From Candidatus Latescibacterota bacterium (GTDB lineage Bacteria; JAAXHH01; JACQVL01), in NCBI GenBank assembly GCA_016209865.1, contig JACQVL010000119.1, positions 1-8,531 of the forward strand: 8,531 nt of DNA, in the 5' to 3' direction. The notes beneath the pieces are model-generated. The model saw nothing but the letters and a program-made list of their open reading frames with translations. It made no database searches and had not been told where the DNA came from. A program made the position numbers and the translations under genes. Below are positions 1,014 through 8,531 of this stretch, one piece after another. How positions within the stretch are numbered: the first letter of the stretch is position 1; each line of letters begins with the position of its first letter.

Positions 1014-1517
1014 TTACACCACCGCACGAATCAGCCGCCGGCTCCGCCGGTCGAGGTGATGCACATCCCGGATTTCGTACCGGTTGCCGTGGTCGTCCGT
1101 GATCACGATGCGGCCGGGCGCGATCTCGGCGATGTGGTCGCGGATGCCTTTGAACGCGATCGTCGTCGCTCCCCGGTCTGTCTCAACGTCGAGATACGAA
1201 CGATCCGACTTGCTCCACATCCGGTTGATCCGCACGATCCGGGGGGTAAAATAGCGCCAGCGGAGCTCGTCATCCACGACCTGCTGCGACTGGGCATCCA
1301 GCGCCGTGACATCGATGATCATCCCGATGTAGGCGTCATCCGCGTCGAAGAAGGCCACGTACTTGCGCTCATCTGACAGCGGGAACGCCAGCCGGACCCG
1401 GACATCCTCATACGTCTGGCCGTCCACCGTGAGGACCGGGGGAACGTCCGGGACGCGCGTGAGCCGGACCCGTGCGGGATCGAGGAAAGATGATGGGAGG
1501 GGATCATCAAGTTGCAT
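1014..1517 (-). CDS. DUF1854 family protein (ABC-transporter-associated)
   Basis: A 167-residue soluble protein with no signal peptide or membrane segment. Residues 42-90 contain FPLSDERKYVAFFDADD, then YIGMIIDV, then a Leu-Asp-x-x-Ser-x-x-x-Val run and ELRWRYFTPRI. Residues 100-155 contain LDVETDRG, then a GRIVITDDHGNRYEI segment, and the protein ends LDRRSRRLIRAVV. This is the characteristic layout of DUF1854. Members are commonly encoded next to an exporter-type ABC protein, in loci that databases label cyanophycin-metabolism associated. That arrangement is seen here: the ABC gene ends 48 bases upstream on the same strand, so the two are probably co-transcribed. The molecular function is unknown. 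I chose the ATG at 1517 over an in-frame GTG at 1550 because the GTG lies inside a heptamer repeat and precedes a non-conserved stretch. The Shine-Dalgarno (AGAAG) is weak. The cyanophycin link comes from family knowledge; no cyanophycin gene is in the window. Confidence 0.85.
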   Translation of the reverse strand: MQLDDPLPSSFLDPARVRLTRVPDVPPVLTVDGQTYEDVRVRLAFPLSDERKYVAFFDADDAYIGMIIDVTALDAQSQQVVDDELRWRYFTPRIVRINRMWSKSDRSYLDVETDRGATTIAFKGIRDHIAEIAPGRIVITDDHGNRYEIRDVHHLDRRSRRLIRAVV

Positions 1518-1542
1518 TGAAGTTCTTCTGTCTCTGTCTTTA

Positions 1543-1557
1543 CTCGTCACTCGCCAC
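1543..1557. repeat. Heptamer repeat, array C (two units)
   Basis: CTCGTCACTCGCCAC on the plus strand: two units of the same heptamer as array B, in the same orientation, one unit with a T-to-C change. It fills much of the 48-base gap between the ABC transporter stop and the DUF1854 start. Together with the adjoining bases it shares TTTACTCGTCACT with array B, making an imperfect direct repeat around the DUF1854 gene. Confidence 0.65.
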
Positions 1558-1565
1558 TGTCTCTT

Positions 1566-3758
1566 CTATCCTTCCACCGCCACCACACTTGACACGTCCC
1601 GGTGGAGCTGGACGAGCCGGTAATAGACCCCGCGCCGCTCTAAGAGCTCTTCGTGCGTCCCCAGTTCGACCGGTCGGCCGCGTTCGAGGACGATCAGCCG
1701 GTCGGCGTCCCGCAGGGTGGACAGCCGGTGGGCGATGGCGAACGTCGTGCGTCCCTCCATCAACCGGCCGAGCGCTTCTTGAATCTTTTTCTCCGTCTCC
1801 AAGTCGAGGGATGACGTCGGCTCGTCGAGAATCAGGATGCGCGGGTTGTGCAGGATCGCGCGGGCGATCACGATCCGCTGCCGCTCCCCTCCGGAGAGCC
1901 GTCCGCCGCGTTCTCCGACCAGGGTATCGTAGCCGTCCGTGAGCTTGACGATGAATTCGTGGGCGTTGGCCACGATCGCCGCTTCGATCAACTCCTCCCG
2001 CGTCGCGTCCGGCTTGCCGAAGGCGATGTTCTCCGCCACCGTCCCGGCGAACAGGAACGGGTCCTGCTCCACATACCCGATCTGGCTCCGAAGATCGACG
2101 AGCCGCATCCGCCGGATGTCGACCCCGTCGATCAGAATCTGGCCGTCCGTCACGTCGTAGAACCGGCAGAGCAGCTTGATGAGCGTCGATTTTCCCGCGC
2201 CGCTGTGGCCGACGAGGCCGATCGTTTCTCCCGGCTCGACGGCCAGGGTCAGGGTCTGCAGCACCGGCCGATGGGCCTCGTACCCGAACGTCACGTCCCG
2301 GAATTCGACCCGGCCGGTGAGATGGGGCATGGGGACGGCGCCCGGCGGGTCGTAGACTTCCGGCGTGCTATCGATCACCTCGAACGTCCGGCTGATGGCG
2401 GTCATCATCTCCGGCACCCAGTCCGCCATGCTGGTCAGGTACTGCACCGGCCCGTAGAACATGCCTAAGTAGCCGAAGAACGCCATCAGCGTCCCTAACG
2501 TCATCGTCCCGTCTTGCACCTGTTGGCCGCCGGACCACCAGATGAGCAGCCCGCCGGTGGCGACGATGAACGCTAAGATCGGACGGACGGTGCGCGACCG
2601 GGCGTGGATGTGACGCTCCGCCTCGTAGACCTTGTAGCTGTCCTCCTGGAGTTGTGCTGTCTGGCGGTCCTCCTGGGCGAAGATTTTGACCACCTTGATC
2701 CCGGAGAGGGCGTCCGTCACCCGCGCGTAGAACAGCGCCCACTTGTCCCACGACTTCCCGTAGTACCAGGCGAGGTGGCTCTCGATCTTGACAGAGGCGA
2801 TGACGATCAGGGGGATCGGGATGAGGACGAGCGCGGCTAAGCGCCAGTTCATGGCGAACAGCACGCCCCCCATCCCCAGGACGAGCAGGCTTTGCTGGAG
2901 GCACTGCGGGGCGAAGTCGATCCAGAAATGATGGATCGACCGGGCATCTCGTGAGACGCGTGCGACGACTCCGCCCGTCTGATGGGTGTCGAAATACCGT
3001 AATTGCAGTCGCTGGAGGACGCGGAGGAGGGCGGTCCGGGCGTCGTACGCGAAGAGGTCCCCTAAGGCGCTGGTCAGACGCCCGCTCACGATCGAGATCA
3101 CAGTGTTCCCTATCCGGGCTGCGGCTAAGGCGAGGACGAGCGGCATCAGGAGGCCGAACCGGGCGGGGATTTTCAGGACGTCATCGACGAGCACCTTCGT
3201 CAGGTAGGGCGGGAGCAGGTCGAGGAGCGATCCGGCGGAGGTGATCAAGAGGGCGACGACCAGTTTGTGCCAGTGGGGCACGCAGAACATCCAGAGCCGT
3301 CTGAGGGTGCGGAAATGGACGGTCCGGGCTGCGCGCTCGGTCTCCTGCGCCTGTTCTGTCCGGATGGAGGGCAGCCAGGCGTCCGGCCTGGCGTCCCGGC
3401 CGATGAGGCCTTGCAGGAGTTCGACCGCCCGCGAGAAATCCTTCGACCCGGCGTAGGTGAACCGGAGGAGCCGTCGAGGCCGGCCGGCGACGGTCGCCAT
3501 GAGGGCACTTGACCCGACCAGCGGGTCGATCGTGACGGTCGAGATGTCCGCCAGCGCCAAATCGTGGTGCGTCACCCACCGGCCGCCTGCCTGCGAGACG
3601 ACGAGCAACCGGCTCTCGGCCACGATCAGGTAGGTATCCCCTAACCGGCCGTCCGGGGCGAGGTCGGAGCGACACGCGAACCGGATCGCGCCGTCACGGA
3701 CAGGCAGGGCGGTGATCGCGTGCCGTAGTGTTTCCGGGAGGTCGCTGGCGAGAAGCAT
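1566..3758 (-). CDS. ABC exporter half-transporter with extra N-terminal domain (cyanophycin-locus type)
   Basis: A 730-residue fused permease-ATPase, longer than the usual 580-620 of such half-transporters. Residues 1 to about 150 form an additional soluble domain with beta-strand-like segments (DTYLIVAESRLLVVS at 41-55; RRLLRFTYAG at 95-104). It may resemble a PH-like fold; that is inference. The membrane domain spans about 160-460, with hydrophobic segments near 165-183, 203-225, 285-303, 305-323, 391-408 and 420-440. The nucleotide-binding domain has Walker A GHSGAGKST (517-525), a Q-loop Gln at 565, signature LSGGE (621-625), Walker B ILILDE (641-646), D-loop SLD (650-652) and the H-loop His 677. 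All ATPase motifs are intact, so it should be active, probably as a homodimer in the inner membrane. The substrate is unknown. The partner DUF1854 gene follows directly. The start at 3758 has no clear Shine-Dalgarno, so the true start could differ slightly. Confidence 0.93.
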   Translation of the reverse strand: MLLASDLPETLRHAITALPVRDGAIRFACRSDLAPDGRLGDTYLIVAESRLLVVSQAGGRWVTHHDLALADISTVTIDPLVGSSALMATVAGRPRRLLRFTYAGSKDFSRAVELLQGLIGRDARPDAWLPSIRTEQAQETERAARTVHFRTLRRLWMFCVPHWHKLVVALLITSAGSLLDLLPPYLTKVLVDDVLKIPARFGLLMPLVLALAAARIGNTVISIVSGRLTSALGDLFAYDARTALLRVLQRLQLRYFDTHQTGGVVARVSRDARSIHHFWIDFAPQCLQQSLLVLGMGGVLFAMNWRLAALVLIPIPLIVIASVKIESHLAWYYGKSWDKWALFYARVTDALSGIKVVKIFAQEDRQTAQLQEDSYKVYEAERHIHARSRTVRPILAFIVATGGLLIWWSGGQQVQDGTMTLGTLMAFFGYLGMFYGPVQYLTSMADWVPEMMTAISRTFEVIDSTPEVYDPPGAVPMPHLTGRVEFRDVTFGYEAHRPVLQTLTLAVEPGETIGLVGHSGAGKSTLIKLLCRFYDVTDGQILIDGVDIRRMRLVDLRSQIGYVEQDPFLFAGTVAENIAFGKPDATREELIEAAIVANAHEFIVKLTDGYDTLVGERGGRLSGGERQRIVIARAILHNPRILILDEPTSSLDLETEKKIQEALGRLMEGRTTFAIAHRLSTLRDADRLIVLERGRPVELGTHEELLERRGVYYRLVQLHRDVSSVVAVEG

Positions 3759-3777
3759 AGTGATAAGGAGAAAATGG

Positions 3778-3797
3778 ATTCCCGCTTGCGCGGGAAT
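3778..3797. repeat. Perfect palindromic intergenic element (ATTCCCGC / GCGGGAAT)
   Basis: ATTCCCGC, a four-base TTGC loop, then GCGGGAAT, flanked by GG and GAC. This is the core of a dispersed repeat very widespread in bacterial genomes (a GGATTCCCGC...GCGGGAATGAC type). It lies 19 bases upstream of the ABC transporter start. In RNA it would be an 8-bp hairpin close to the translation start, but no T-run follows, so it is not an ordinary intrinsic terminator. It may act as a processing or stability element, or simply be a mobile-derived repeat. Confidence 0.7.
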
Positions 3798-3813
3798 GAC
3801 AGAAGAGAGACGT

Positions 3814-3871: not shown

Positions 3872-4858
3872 TCAACGTCTGTCTGCTCGACCGGATGGAG
3901 CGGATGTCTGCGGGAAGAGGTCCGGATAGAAACACCGGGCGAGGTCTTCGACCCCTGAGATCGCGCGCGGGCCGGGCCTCAGGAGGTGCTCGGCCGGGAC
4001 TGCGTACACCCGGCGTGCTCGTCCCGCCTTCGTCTCACGCCAGCCCGTCAGGTCGTTCGCCGCCTGTTGCGCGCGCTGGCTGACCCGGTCGGGGGATTCA
4101 TCCGGACTGTTGGTGGTGATGATCACATCCGGATTCTTGACGACGATCTGTTCGAGGCTGTAGACGCCCCACGTTTTTCGTCTCAGGTCGTCCGCCACGT
4201 TCCGGCCGCCGGCGCGTTCGATGATGTCCGTCGTGAACGTACCCGGACCGGGCGTCCAGTGGGCGGTCTCGTCGGGGTTTCCGATGAACACGGCCGGACG
4301 TTGGGTGGCGGGGACGCGGCGCACCTTCGCCGCGACCGCGTCGAGCCGCTGGCGGAGCGACCGGATGAGCGCATCCACGGCGGCCTCCTGGCCGGTCAGC
4401 GTCCCGATCGTCCGGATCGCGCTGAAGATATCCTCGACCGTCTGCGGGTCGAGGACGACGACCGGAAGGCCGACGGCTCGGAGGCCGGCGATCAGGTCGG
4501 CCGGATCATCCCGCGTGGCCAGCACGAGGTCGGGCCGGGCCGCGACGATCGTCTCGACGCTCATCGTCGTCAGCCCGCCCATCGACGGCTTGCGCCGGGC
4601 CTCAGGCGGATAGTCACAGCGTTCGGTCACCCCGACGACCGAGGAGCCCAATCCGAGGGCGAATAGGATCTCCGTGTTGCTCGGGATGAGGGAGACGATC
4701 CGGGCTGGAGGACGGGCAAGGGTGATCGTCTGGCCGGTCGCGTCCGTGACACTGACCGGCCAGGGAGATGGGTGAGCGAGAGCAGGGGAAATCAAGAGGA
4801 GCAGAAACAGGCCAGAAGAACATCTCATGAAACCGGGATGGGGCCTCTCGATGTTCAT
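3872..4858 (-). CDS. btuF: BtuF-like cobalamin/metal-chelate ABC substrate-binding protein
   Basis: A 328-residue periplasmic binding protein of the BtuF/FhuD (Peripla_BP_2) fold, which normally delivers cobalamin or an iron chelate to an inner-membrane BtuCD-type importer. A Sec signal peptide (hydrophobic run FLLLLISPALA, cleavage after Ala 28 likely) is followed by the hallmark RIVSLIPSNTEILFALGLG (53-71), VVGVTERCDYP (74-84) and a PGPGTF with a DIIERAGGRNV (211-221). NPDVII (242-247) completes the second lobe. The ATG at 4858 has a GAGG six bases upstream; the internal ATG at 4828 has no such site, so the longer form is preferred. The start lies 22 bases after the stop of the selenoprotein gene, implying one transcript. 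No permease, ATPase or outer-membrane BtuB gene is in the window, so the partner must be elsewhere. The C-terminal tail (from about 316) is Ser/Arg-rich and not conserved. Ligand identity is inferred from the family; cobalamin is the best guess. Confidence 0.88.
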   Translation of the reverse strand: MNIERPHPGFMRCSSGLFLLLLISPALAHPSPWPVSVTDATGQTITLARPPARIVSLIPSNTEILFALGLGSSVVGVTERCDYPPEARRKPSMGGLTTMSVETIVAARPDLVLATRDDPADLIAGLRAVGLPVVVLDPQTVEDIFSAIRTIGTLTGQEAAVDALIRSLRQRLDAVAAKVRRVPATQRPAVFIGNPDETAHWTPGPGTFTTDIIERAGGRNVADDLRRKTWGVYSLEQIVVKNPDVIITTNSPDESPDRVSQRAQQAANDLTGWRETKAGRARRVYAVPAEHLLRPGPRAISGVEDLARCFYPDLFPQTSAPSGRADRR

Positions 4859-4880: not shown

Positions 4881-5477
4881 TCACTGTCCGGACCGGGATC
4901 GCTCCCCAGTCACGACGCGCAGGATCTCCTCCAGATGGCCGATCGGGGGACGGTCGGCCGCATCCTGAGCGATGTACTTAAACCGGAGGGTTCCAGTCTG
5001 ATCAATCAGGAATATGCTCGGAATGACCTCAACCCGCTTGTCCGTGGGCTTTTCGAGCTTGTAGGTCTTGACGACCGCGCGCAGGGAATCGACAGCGACC
5101 GGGAAGGGAATGGGTTTGCCAGCGGTGTTGAGAAAGTCCCGTGTCTGGGCCACGCCTTCCGGGCTGACGTAGATCACTTCGGTGTTGTACCGGGTGATGC
5201 GATCGTAGTCGGTCAGCAACTGAGCCAGTTGCTTCTGGCAGAGGGGTCACCAATACCCGATCCAGCCCCGGTAGAAGACGAGCAGGACGTTTTTCTTGCC
5301 CTTGAACTCTTCCAATCCAATCGTCTTCCCGTTCACATCCGGCAGCGTAAACGCCGGGGCGGGCTGGCCGATCTGCGGGGCTCTGACGGCTTGGGCCCTG
5401 GCGGGCGCCACGAACACAAGCCCGGCTGCGAGAACACTGGCCACGAGGACACTTGGACGAGCGAGACGGTATGGCAT
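4881..5477 (-). CDS. Peroxiredoxin/TlpA-like selenoprotein, UxxC motif (in-frame TGA read as selenocysteine)
   Basis: A continuous frame of 198 residues runs from an ATG at 5477 (GGAG at 5483-5486) to a TGA at 4881-4883, broken only by one TGA at 5247-5249 (residue 77). Residues 1-28 are a Sec signal peptide ending APARA. IGQPAPAFTLPDVNGKTI (36-53), then NVLLVFYRGWIGYW, then U77-P-L-C80 and QKQLAQL follow: the AhpC/TSA-thioredoxin layout in which the first cysteine of CxxC is replaced by the TGA. The C-terminal half keeps EVIYVSPEG, PFPVAVDS, VIPSIFLIDQTGTLRFKY with the cis-Pro region and an amphipathic final helix, so the family sequence is conserved on both sides of the TGA. A hairpin fitting a bacterial SECIS lies just after. 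Probable role: periplasmic thiol peroxidase or thiol:disulfide reductase. It is first in an operon with the BtuF-like gene, behind a strong promoter. Alternative: a nonsense mutation or base error in a Cys codon (TGC/TGT to TGA). sel genes are not in the window. Confidence 0.85.
5215..5249 (-). promoter_or_regulatory. Bacterial SECIS-like stem-loop with its Sec UGA
   Basis: The UGA is at 5249-5247. On the mRNA, AGCAACUG (5233-5226), loop GCU (5225-5223) and CAGUUGCU (5222-5215) form a perfect 8-bp stem inside the coding region. The loop begins 21 bases after the UGA and its first base is G. As I recall the bacterial consensus, the apical loop lies 16-37 bases after UGA, has a G among its first two bases, and sits on a stem of 4-16 bp or so. 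All are met. The three-base loop is at the short end. Function is the recruitment of SelB with Sec-tRNA; inferred, not shown. Confidence 0.7.
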
Positions 5478-5558
5478 AGGGGCTCCGCTGAAGAGGTGGG
5501 TGTTGTCCCGTTCATCCTCAACACGGGCTGGATGAAGGGATCGCCACTGACTTCAGAC

Positions 5559-6086: not shown

Positions 6087-6725
6087 CTAAGACCGCGACT
6101 CGGTCCGTGCGGCCACGGTCGTGGCCTGTTGAATCGCCGTATCTTCCACCACCCCGGCCTGCACGCTCTGTTCCGTAATCCACTGTTCTGCGTTGAGTTC
6201 GAACACGATGGCAGTCCGGAAGCTGGTCTCGCTGCTGACTTGGAACGAGACCGCCTTATCGATCTCCACGCGCTGGTCAGTCCCTCCCACTTTGACGGTG
6301 GTGTCACTCGTCAGGGTCAGACTGCCGATTGTACTCCCGGCCTTAATAGTGGCGGTGGCGTTTTGCAAGACGAGCCGGACACGCGCGTAGGTGCCGACTC
6401 GTGCGTCTTGCTCCCCATGGACGTTCGTACTATCTGTCGTGTTTTGGAGCTTGATCGTGATCCCGTTCGGCGAACCCAAGTCAACCCATGTTGTCCCGTC
6501 TGCAGAAAGAGAGACGAAGGTATTCGCGGTGAGATCACCCGTAAAGGTAGCACTCGTCGCGCCGGCCCCCGAGACTTTCGGGTTGGCCTGCTGGGGATGA
6601 TCCTTGACGACCCCTTGTGCCCGGCCCTCCGAACTTGACCCGACGCCATTCTCACACCCGATCACAACGAACGCCATGACCGCCAGAGCTACAGCGAGCC
6701 ACTCCCTCCCTCGCATCGTTCGCAT
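6087..6725 (-). CDS. DUF4382-like secreted lipoprotein
   Basis: A 212-residue lipoprotein. Residues 1-23 form a signal (basic n-region MRTMRGR, hydrophobic core LAVALAVMAFVV) ending in VIGC with Cys 24. A Ser/Gly-rich linker (25-60) follows, then a beta-rich domain: TFVSLSADGTTWVDLGSPNGITIKL (69-93), VGTYARVRLVLQNATATI (110-127), SLTLTSDTTVKV (135-146), and VFELNAEQWI (174-183). The order 'W-v-d-L... then G-tYarvRLvL... then aspartate-rich/ELNAEQWI' is like DUF4382, a beta-sandwich envelope family of unknown function. The ATG at 6725 is chosen because GGAGG lies eight bases upstream; a longer frame up to 6767 lacks such support and would place the signal peptide too far in. The assignment is by pattern; I could not search. 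Its role is probably adhesion or envelope structure, which is inference. Confidence 0.65.
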   Translation of the reverse strand: MRTMRGREWLAVALAVMAFVVIGCENGVGSSSEGRAQGVVKDHPQQANPKVSGAGATSATFTGDLTANTFVSLSADGTTWVDLGSPNGITIKLQNTTDSTNVHGEQDARVGTYARVRLVLQNATATIKAGSTIGSLTLTSDTTVKVGGTDQRVEIDKAVSFQVSSETSFRTAIVFELNAEQWITEQSVQAGVVEDTAIQQATTVAARTESRS

Positions 6726-6736
6726 CGTTCTCCCCT

Positions 6737-6756
6737 CCCTGACCAGCGGCTCAGGG
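6737..6756 (-). other. Leader hairpin beside the DUF4382-like gene start
   Basis: On the minus strand, CCCTGA, an eight-base middle, and TCAGGG, with one bulged G and a further GG/CC pair inside. The 3' arm runs into the Shine-Dalgarno GGAGG and lies 11 bases before the ATG at 6725. Fifteen to twenty bases further upstream a second CCCTGA (6774-6779 on the plus strand reads TCAGGG) could pair with the same arm. Whether this regulates translation is unknown. Confidence 0.4.
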
Positions 6757-6823
6757 TGATCAGGCATCCCGTATCAGGGCAAGATCGAGAACCTTCCCCG
6801 ACCGACCCGGGCTGCGCATCCGT

Positions 6824-7009
6824 TTAGTCCTCCACACCATCCCGGTCATCATCCTCGAAGCCTTCGATGGAAGTCCTGATGTTGCTTTTCACCAGGTTTT
6901 CATTGGCGCCACCCTTGTTCGCCGACCTGGGGTCTATCAGGGCCCCATTCGCGTCGCGGAACCAGCTATTTCCTCCTCTGGTTCCCATGCCCGTTTTTCC
7001 CTTTCCCAT
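6824..7009 (-). CDS. Short coding stretch in an overlapping frame: small protein or out-of-frame tail
   Basis: From an ATG at 7009 this frame encodes 61 residues ending in FEDDDRDGVED. The last 47 codons are mostly G/C at the third base, purine-rich at the first and A/T-rich at the second, the signature of real coding in a high-GC genome. It overlaps the end of the upstream secreted protein by 44 bases in the +1 frame. Sequence around the junction is a run of GGGAAAGGGAAAAACGGG, prone to slips. Two readings are possible: an independent gene (AAGG nine bases before the ATG), or the natural C-terminal tail of the upstream protein put out of frame by a one-base change. An acidic, Asp-rich end would suit either a calcium-binding or a linker segment. 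I do not recognise the family. Confidence 0.4.
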   Translation of the reverse strand: MGKGKTGMGTRGGNSWFRDANGALIDPRSANKGGANENLVKSNIRTSIEGFEDDDRDGVED

Positions 7010-7571
7010 GCAGTTTGACCTTGCCTTTCCCAGCTTCCGCATGAATGGCCGAAAAACTTTTTCCTTGCCTTCGCATCTTCATCAGGGCATGAGACGAATA
7101 CCCGTGGTGTTCTGAGAGAATCCGGATGTTCACGAGATTGATCACGTCACCATCGCTGAGGATCAGGGTTTTCGCCCTCTTTGGTTTGAACTTGTAGTAG
7201 CCGTATGCCTTGCCATACGGCGGACCGCCCGGCACCAAAAAGATCTCAGGACTCACGCCAAAGTGGAAGGCAATATCCCACCATGTCTTCCCATGTCGCC
7301 TGAGGTCGATGATAGTGACAGGGGCAACGTGAGCCTGCTCAGCAAGAAAGAGGACGACCGGGATTTCATCATACGGGATGCTGTGACGATCTCGAAGAAT
7401 GACCACTTCTCTGTAAGGCACCCTGTAGTAGTTGCTGACCGCAAGATAGAAGTTTCGTAACCCTGTCTCTCCTATGGAGACACCGAAATCGACGTTGTGA
7501 GCCTCAGCACGTCCCATCGGGCTGCTGAAGACGAGCACAGCCGGTATCAGATACAACAAGACGTATCGCAT
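6966..7571 (-). CDS. Secreted protein of unknown function
   Basis: A 201-residue exported protein: signal peptide 1-24 (hydrophobic core YVLLYLIPAVLVFSS, ending AEA before His 25). The ATG at 7571 is well supported by GAGGGGG six bases upstream; an in-frame start further up (7607) has no such site. Residues 36-180 are helical and rich in aromatic and charged residues: FYLAVSNYYRVPYREVVILRD, IPVVLFLAEQAHVAPVTIIDLR, WWDIAFHFGVSPEIF, then a GGPPYGKAYGYYK turn, LSDGDVINLVNIRILSEHHGYS and MKMRRQGKSFSAIH. I recognise the pattern from uncharacterised secreted proteins in Desulfuromonadota and Nitrospirota, but know of no assigned function. The C-terminal KGKVKLHGKGKNGHGNQRRK is a basic low-complexity tail and may be an artefact of a frame change (see 6824..7009). 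Upstream gene ends 51 bases away, so co-transcription is plausible. Confidence 0.75.
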   Translation of the reverse strand: MRYVLLYLIPAVLVFSSPMGRAEAHNVDFGVSIGETGLRNFYLAVSNYYRVPYREVVILRDRHSIPYDEIPVVLFLAEQAHVAPVTIIDLRRHGKTWWDIAFHFGVSPEIFLVPGGPPYGKAYGYYKFKPKRAKTLILSDGDVINLVNIRILSEHHGYSSHALMKMRRQGKSFSAIHAEAGKGKVKLHGKGKNGHGNQRRK

Positions 7572-7622
7572 AATATTCCCCCTCATTTTAGTACTCACTG
7601 GGAACACAAGGATCCAGTCGCC

Positions 7623-8531
7623 CTACGGGCGGCGTGGTTTATCACGATCCGGGCGTGGCCCTGGTCTCTCCGCCGGTGGGCCTTTACGGCCTGTCTTCCG
7701 ATCATCTCCCGCACGAGGGACGGCTCGACGGGAGTCTCGCTCACGCTCGCGGGCCTGCATATCTCGCATGACGTCTGACGGGCTCCGCCCCTGCTTGATG
7801 GCGTTGATGAGTTCGTCGGCGGCTCGATCGGGGGGCACCTCCGAGACCAGCCGATCGATCGACGTCACCGCCTCCCGGAACTCATCGGCGGGCCACGCCC
7901 GTTCAAGACCGACATCAACGATACTGGCTGCCTGCCGCGCTGGCACCCGGCGCGAGACGAGATCGCCATAGACTTCAACGGCGGTCACGACCGCCTGCAA
8001 GGTGAGTTTCGCCCGGTTTGGGGAGCGGACAGCGCCGTTGATGATCTGCTCGATCACGCCGTCTGCTGTGCCGTGACTCATCGCGCCAGTCAGTCTCAAC
8101 ACCGCGTTTTCCCGCTCAACAGCGGGCGCGGCCCATTTCTGGGCGGTCAGCTTGTCGAAGGAGCGGGCAGCCACCCGGAGCCGCTGGCCGTGGGCGTTCA
8201 ACGCGGGGATCAGACGTGACGGTGGAATGCCCTTGGCGACCCCTTCGAGCGCCTTGTCAAACAGGAGTTTTGGCGGTACTCCTGTCGCCACCGAGCGTTC
8301 GAGTCCATTCAAGACTGCGACAATCTCGTCCGATCCTGTGCCAGATGCCACCATCCGATTCACGAGAGCCCGCGCATCCTCTCCGGAGATGCCGCGTTGC
8401 TTCACGCGCTCGACCGCAGCCGCGAGACGAGGATCGGATAGATCGCGTCTGGTGGGTGTTCCCTGCTGGTCATCTAGCGTGAAATCGATCGCCAGTCCTG
8501 GCTTCGCCATGATGGAGACCAGCAACAGTCC
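7623..8531 (-). CDS. Secreted alpha-helical protein of unknown function, N-terminus outside window
   Basis: An open frame of 302 codons that is already open at the right edge. The first residues (GLLLVSIMAKPGLA) look like the end of a Sec signal peptide, so the true start lies a few codons outside; the internal ATG at 8510 has no Shine-Dalgarno. Residues about 30-240 are predicted helical, with glycine/proline hinge repeats: VATGVPPKLLFDKALEGVAKGIPPSRLIPAL, then a SRRVPARQAASIVDVGLERAWPADEF, suggesting a repeated helical hairpin of about 30-40 residues. The last 45 residues (RERERDSRRAVPRAGDDRKTG and on) are strongly basic and Pro/Arg-rich and likely disordered. No enzyme motif is visible. 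A periplasmic location is inferred. The next gene begins 51 bases later on the same strand. What it does is not known to me. Confidence 0.7.
   Translation of the reverse strand, partial: GLLLVSIMAKPGLAIDFTLDDQQGTPTRRDLSDPRLAAAVERVKQRGISGEDARALVNRMVASGTGSDEIVAVLNGLERSVATGVPPKLLFDKALEGVAKGIPPSRLIPALNAHGQRLRVAARSFDKLTAQKWAAPAVERENAVLRLTGAMSHGTADGVIEQIINGAVRSPNRAKLTLQAVVTAVEVYGDLVSRRVPARQAASIVDVGLERAWPADEFREAVTSIDRLVSEVPPDRAADELINAIKQGRSPSDVMRDMQARERERDSRRAVPRAGDDRKTGRKGPPAERPGPRPDRDKPRRP

Follow-up and report, generated by a model that had tools for sequence, protein, structure and literature searches.

The window, the whole 8,531-nucleotide stretch of a Candidatus Latescibacterota genome that was analysed here, holds two adjacent half-frames of a redoxin on its minus strand. 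The question raised by this locus was whether they are a broken gene, two genes, or one selenoprotein gene in which an internal UGA is read as selenocysteine (Sec).

Reading frame and conservation across the TGA

A single 198-codon frame ran on the minus strand from 5477 to 4881; it was interrupted only by a TGA at 5247-5249 and terminated by a second TGA at 4881-4883. When the internal TGA was translated as Sec, the product was MPYRLARPSV...RGWIGYW-U-PLC-QKQLAQL...RSRSGQ, 198 residues with Sec as residue 77. Without recoding, the ORF listing split the gene into 5477-5247 (76 aa) and 5219-4881 (112 aa), the latter opening with TTG. The initial annotation had described two half-frames in one register split by one TGA at the first Cys of a CxxC motif, had expected standard annotation to give two truncated proteins or a pseudogene, and had regarded the downstream half as lacking a convincing start; the frame analysis agreed on the two pieces and the register, and the downstream half had no ATG. 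The joined protein matched Pfam AhpC-TSA (PF00578) over residues 36-166 with 86.9 bits (gathering score, 26). Because this match crosses the TGA, both sides of it lie in one domain, in keeping with the earlier view that both halves are family sequence. The open ORF from TTG 5219 to 4881 could point to two genes, one for an exported peptide of 76 residues and one for a downstream protein with its own start. However, that ORF has no ATG to start from, the split would cut through one conserved domain and its active site, and the halves fit one Pfam model end to end. The two-gene reading was rejected on the single PF00578 domain across the split and is considered extremely improbable.

The comparison sample consisted of the window genome and 15 other genomes of the phylum, all of the same order. 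An orthologue was present in 14 of the 15 relatives, and in all 14 the frame was preserved, with a single TGA at the identical codon, showing that the TGA-interrupted frame is retained far beyond chance. Identity of these orthologues to the window protein was 44-48%. The motif RGW[IV]GYW-U-P[LH]C occurred in all of them, and U77, P78 and C80 were invariant across the 15 sequences including the window's own. The fifteenth relative (G013) had no orthologue, but it carried a different Prx-like protein, with the motif WUPFC. None of the 16 phylum genomes yielded a Cys-form orthologue. Downstream of the TGA, dN/dS was 0.06-0.23 in pairs with unsaturated dS, which indicates purifying selection on this part of the gene. 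Relatives with a plain stop and decaying downstream sequence, a counter-sign named in the initial annotation, were not encountered; the TGA was kept and the sequence behind it was conserved.

These data bear on the possibility that an ordinary CxxC redoxin gained its TGA through a nonsense mutation or through a sequencing or assembly error. The window genome is only a 3.75-Mb draft in 356 contigs (83% complete), which would leave room for such an error. However, 14 other assemblies share the identical TGA, selection on the 3' half is purifying, and the phylum sample is without a Cys-form orthologue. A pseudogene or error was rejected on the shared TGA and the conserved coding sequence downstream, and its probability is judged to be negligible.

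Table 1. Positions of the redoxin gene, its sites and adjacent features in the window
Feature	Position	Strand	Basis
Predicted Sec redoxin gene of 198 codons, with its TGA stop at 4881-4883	4881..5477	-	Frame, PF00578, orthologues
In-frame TGA, residue 77, predicted to be read as Sec	5247..5249	-	TGA in 15/15 orthologues including the window's own
Cys80 codon (TGC), UxxC partner	5238..5240	-	Invariant in 39 homologues
Putative bSECIS hairpin AGCAACU-GGCUC-AGUUGCU	5215..5233	-	Conserved bases and folding, model of PMC13188914
Pro153 codon, thioredoxin-type (cis-)Pro position	5019..5021	-	Arg there in Bcp/PrxQ-type peroxiredoxins
N-terminus resembling a signal peptide, with Arg, a hydrophobic stretch and A-R-A ahead of Q29	5394..5477	-	By eye from sequence
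GGAG, possible ribosome-binding site ahead of ATG	5483..5486	-	Sequence
BtuF-like periplasmic binding protein, 22 nt downstream of redoxin	3872..4858	-	Adjacent gene

The redoxin sub-clade spanned three families of one bacterial order. No conserved gene neighbourhood was found around the redoxin in the relatives, and because the neighbourhood differs among them, no operon function could be derived. Elsewhere in the window, an ABC transporter lies beside a DUF1854 protein (1014-3758); the pair resembles the cyanophycin-metabolism-associated NF052233/NF052234, below both cut-offs. Short intergenic repeat copies resembling GTGACGAGTGACGAG were seen by eye in both orientations at 868-897, 985-1010 and 1540-1556, and so was GGATTCCCGCTTGCGCGGGAATGAC, an intergenic palindromic element like a dispersed repeat, at 3775-3805. 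The three proteins encoded within 6087-8525 had no Pfam or NCBIfam match over cut-off (6087-6767, with a weak DUF4382 match; 6966-7607; 7623-8525).

Candidate bSECIS hairpin, Sec machinery and the Sec synthase

A putative bSECIS hairpin was located by inspecting the conserved bases behind the TGA (Table 1). Its apical loop started 20 nt after the TGA with the bases GG, and the stem had 7-8 bp; the loop, GGCUC, is reduced to 3 nt if the outer G-C closes. The folding energy was -9.0 kcal/mol, or -10.1 with one extra base on each side. Published bSECIS constraints (PMC13188914, Fig. 2) are a loop of 3-9 nt, a stem of 4-16 bp, a G in the first two loop places, a distance of 16-37 nt from the UGA and an MFE <= -7.5 kcal/mol, and the window hairpin lay within all of them. 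Four diverged lineages shared GCAACU-NNNNN-AGUUGC, which starts at base 18 when the U of UGA is numbered 1. The 12 stem bases (5216-5221 and 5227-5232) were invariant in the four and the loop and flanks varied; synonymous codon identity elsewhere in the gene was about 35-52% between them. The four hairpins had stems of 7-8 bp, energies of -8.8 to -10.1 kcal/mol, the same 20 nt spacing and a G within the first two loop bases.

When 54 nt were folded unmasked, a different structure was preferred in the MFE fold, and no single structure was common to the lineages. When the first 12 nt were omitted, since the ribosome would cover these UGA-proximal bases, the probability of the conserved stem was near 1. 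Compensatory stem changes were absent from the four lineages; the stem never varied, so covariation could not be scored. Since the encoded Q-L-x-(Q/E)-L favours such pairing, sampling of synonymous codons gave a Watson-Crick stem by chance in about 5-10% per lineage. As evidence for recoding by itself, the hairpin would be good but not overwhelming, because the four lineages are related.

A search for sel genes, suggested in the initial annotation, returned selB, selC and selD, three genes of the bacterial Sec-decoding trait, all in the window genome. The selB gene (C14:6944-8833) scored 337 bits against a cut-off of 242, and a tRNA-Sec with anticodon TCA lay 82 nt behind it (G000:C14:8916-9013). 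The selD gene (C19:21578-22510) scored 390 bits against a cut-off of 125 and also had an internal in-frame TGA; this lies in G-A-G-U-A-C-K, at the UxxK place known for Sec. A hairpin, GCGCA-GGUGC-UGCGC, was noticed by eye behind this TGA (locus L060).

TGA also served as an ordinary stop, ending both the redoxin gene and its neighbour at 3872-4858, indicating that it is recoded in context only. Cys at the TGA place in homologues would suit random readthrough or a genome-wide recoding of TGA to another amino acid such as Trp or Cys. However, against this stand the two genes terminated by TGA, the tRNA-Sec with a TCA anticodon adjoining selB, the SECIS-like hairpin, and the in-frame TGA of selD, which lies at a known Sec site. 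Genome-wide reassignment was rejected on the two terminating TGAs, and insertion of an amino acid other than Sec is regarded as highly improbable.

The selenoprotein reading of the initial annotation was thus upheld by the TGA in 14 of 14 orthologues, purifying selection, the SECIS-like hairpin and the Sec machinery. The gene almost certainly encodes a selenoprotein, probably an exported one, of thioredoxin/peroxiredoxin fold, whose UGA would be read by way of bSECIS, SelB and Sec-tRNA-Sec. In the proposed mechanism, the hairpin 20 nt downstream would recruit SelB carrying Sec-tRNA-Sec(UCA), and the ribosome would then read the UGA as Sec.

In the window genome, the one selA homologue (C80:19922-21277) passed TIGR00474 (350.7 bits) and had the N-terminal tRNA-binding domain PF12390; it had GGDGLVGGP where the PLP-lysine motif SGDKLLGGP was expected. 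The relatives carried two types of SelA-like gene. Type 1 (13 read) kept the lysine, started close to N(G/A)TG and had no N-terminal domain. The 11 type-2 genes read, one of them from the window genome, had an N-terminal extension and were without the lysine. PF12390 scored over cut-off only in the window genome (G000), G001 and G013, and no SelA read in the order combined the tRNA-binding domain with the PLP lysine. Type 1 aligned to the solved bacterial SelA 8uzw from chain residue 77 on with 332 bits and only weakly to MJ0158, indicating that it is a main-lineage SelA shortened at the N-terminus. A type-1 gene was not found in the window genome, which may be due to the incompleteness of the assembly (83% complete). 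As an alternative synthase, archaeal/eukaryotic SepSecS was not found in the window genome and gave nothing beyond weak matches in two relatives.

Loss of the N-terminal domain has been described as a mark of SelA that is not used for Sec, in species without other sel genes (PMC4607533); in contrast, the present case has selB, selC and selD. With the SelA features divided over two genes, a divided selenocysteine synthase is possible, and no published example of a divided SelA was found in the literature. That a non-canonical Sec synthase serves the redoxin as a Sec-only sub-clade seems rather doubtful. The lysine-less SelA homologue of the 83%-complete assembly counts against Sec insertion, yet the SelA puzzle leaves the selenoprotein call unweakened. 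It poses a sharper question, namely which protein is the Sec synthase, given tRNA-Sec, SelB and SelD yet split SelA features.

Fold and active site

The AlphaFold model built from 39 homologues had a pLDDT of 88.5 and a thioredoxin fold, with U77 directly before a helix (78-95); when only the 15 orthologues were used, the model was poor, with a pLDDT of 53.6. The best PDB match to the model was the peroxiredoxin Bcp4 (3hjp; Z 23.3, rmsd 1.7 A over 154 residues). By sequence profile, the best solved relatives were ResA and a PrxQ-like protein, with the ResA/TlpA type best. In the alignment, U77 shared a column with the first ResA/TlpA Cys and with the Thr of TxxC in peroxiredoxins; Cys80 lined up with the peroxidatic Cys, and Pro153 took the place of the peroxiredoxin Arg. 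These positions indicate an active site of the thiol:disulfide oxidoreductase type, in which Sec would be the attacking residue.

The initial annotation had invoked the frequent replacement of the peroxidatic Cys by Sec in bacterial peroxiredoxin/thioredoxin families, and this part did not hold: Sec aligned with the N-terminal Cys of ResA and thioredoxin, and Cys80 with the peroxidatic Cys. A true peroxiredoxin with Sec replacing its peroxidatic Cys would be in line with PF00578 and with peroxiredoxin folds as the best structural matches, but fold does not fix activity. The catalytic set of true peroxiredoxins (PxxxTxxC plus the catalytic Arg) was missing, with U77 on the Thr, Ile rather than Pro at residue 73 and Pro153 for the Arg, whereas UxxC and the Pro were present. 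Moreover, TxxU Prx are distinguished from UxxC Prx-like proteins in PMC1088965. A true peroxiredoxin is therefore unlikely, and the term 'peroxiredoxin-like', judged from the alignment, fits the fold and superfamily but not the active site.

For the preferred thiol:disulfide oxidoreductase, Sec, the first residue of U77-P-L-C80, would act as the N-terminal nucleophile where helix alpha-1 begins, and Cys80 would resolve Sec77. The protein is probably exported. The initial annotation had proposed a 198-residue exported selenoprotein; the length was recovered as a frame, and export is suggested only by the signal-peptide-like N-terminus seen by eye. Its periplasmic role might be that of a Sec-dependent disulfide reductase or isomerase, or of a thiol-dependent hydroperoxide reductase. 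Sequence comparison supports coding through the TGA, the conservation of this codon, the Sec/Cys column, the SECIS-like hairpin, the Sec machinery genes and the predicted fold. We infer Sec insertion, export, catalytic role and substrate, and a periplasmic thiol:disulfide oxidoreductase or thiol peroxidase function appears most likely.

Relation to known selenoproteins

Aligning homologues at position 77, a check proposed in the initial annotation, gave either U or C. Homologues from other phyla had U (WUPFC, FUPFC, WUPYC) or C (ICPYC, WCPPC) in this column, and such an exchange among distant homologues is a classical sign of a Sec site. A contig search with the redoxin protein returned only a Burkholderiales CxxC redoxin locus. 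Several Prx-like or Trx-like frames with one TGA each were observed in genomes of other phyla (G054, on contigs C101, C27 and C162, locus L040; G063; G113; G379), which suggests that these are selenoprotein-rich species.

The window protein had the marks of its family, namely a PF00578 domain, Sec as the first residue of UxxC and Sec/Cys exchange among homologues. By these sequence features, it is classified as a UxxC Prx-like thiol:disulfide oxidoreductase. UxxC Prx-like selenoproteins have long been described (PMC1088965, PMC2398784, PMC9312934, PMC13188914), and the window protein is well supported as a new member, and a new lineage, of an already known kind. It adds a probably exported Sec redoxin sub-clade, of which the window member reaches no NCBIfam cut-off; since no model does so, automated annotation would probably break the gene into fragments or truncate it.

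Of the known systems, the Prx-like thiol:disulfide oxidoreductase selenoproteins (UxxC/UxxU; 'Prx-like 1' in GOS) share PF00578 with the window protein. Prx-like selenoproteins of this domain also have in common with it UxxC at the thioredoxin-type position, an in-frame UGA with a bSECIS, and Cys-containing homologues. Compared with the usual RGxWUPFC, the window clade has a longer loop, RGW(I/V)GYW-U-P(L/H)-C, together with a signal-peptide-like N-terminus and, in the phylum sample, the Sec form only. The longer loop was also found outside the phylum at locus L084 (RGWVGYW-U-PYC). The best NCBIfam model was that of the SelL-related redox protein (NF040769), matched by all 15 orthologues, but the window protein scored 59.5 bits against a cut-off of 120 and is not a member by NCBI's test. 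ResA/TlpA-type proteins (PRK03147; PDB 3c71, 1st9, 4nmu) share the N-terminal nucleophile position of CxxC and the Pro in the opposite loop, whereas the window protein has Sec for Cys and a longer active-site loop and scored 59.1 bits against the PRK03147 cut-off of 170. PrxU, the selenocysteine peroxiredoxin (NF040737), is likewise a selenoprotein of the AhpC/TSA superfamily; however, its Sec is at the peroxidatic place (TxxU), while that of the window protein is at the UxxC place, with 27 bits against a cut-off of 270.
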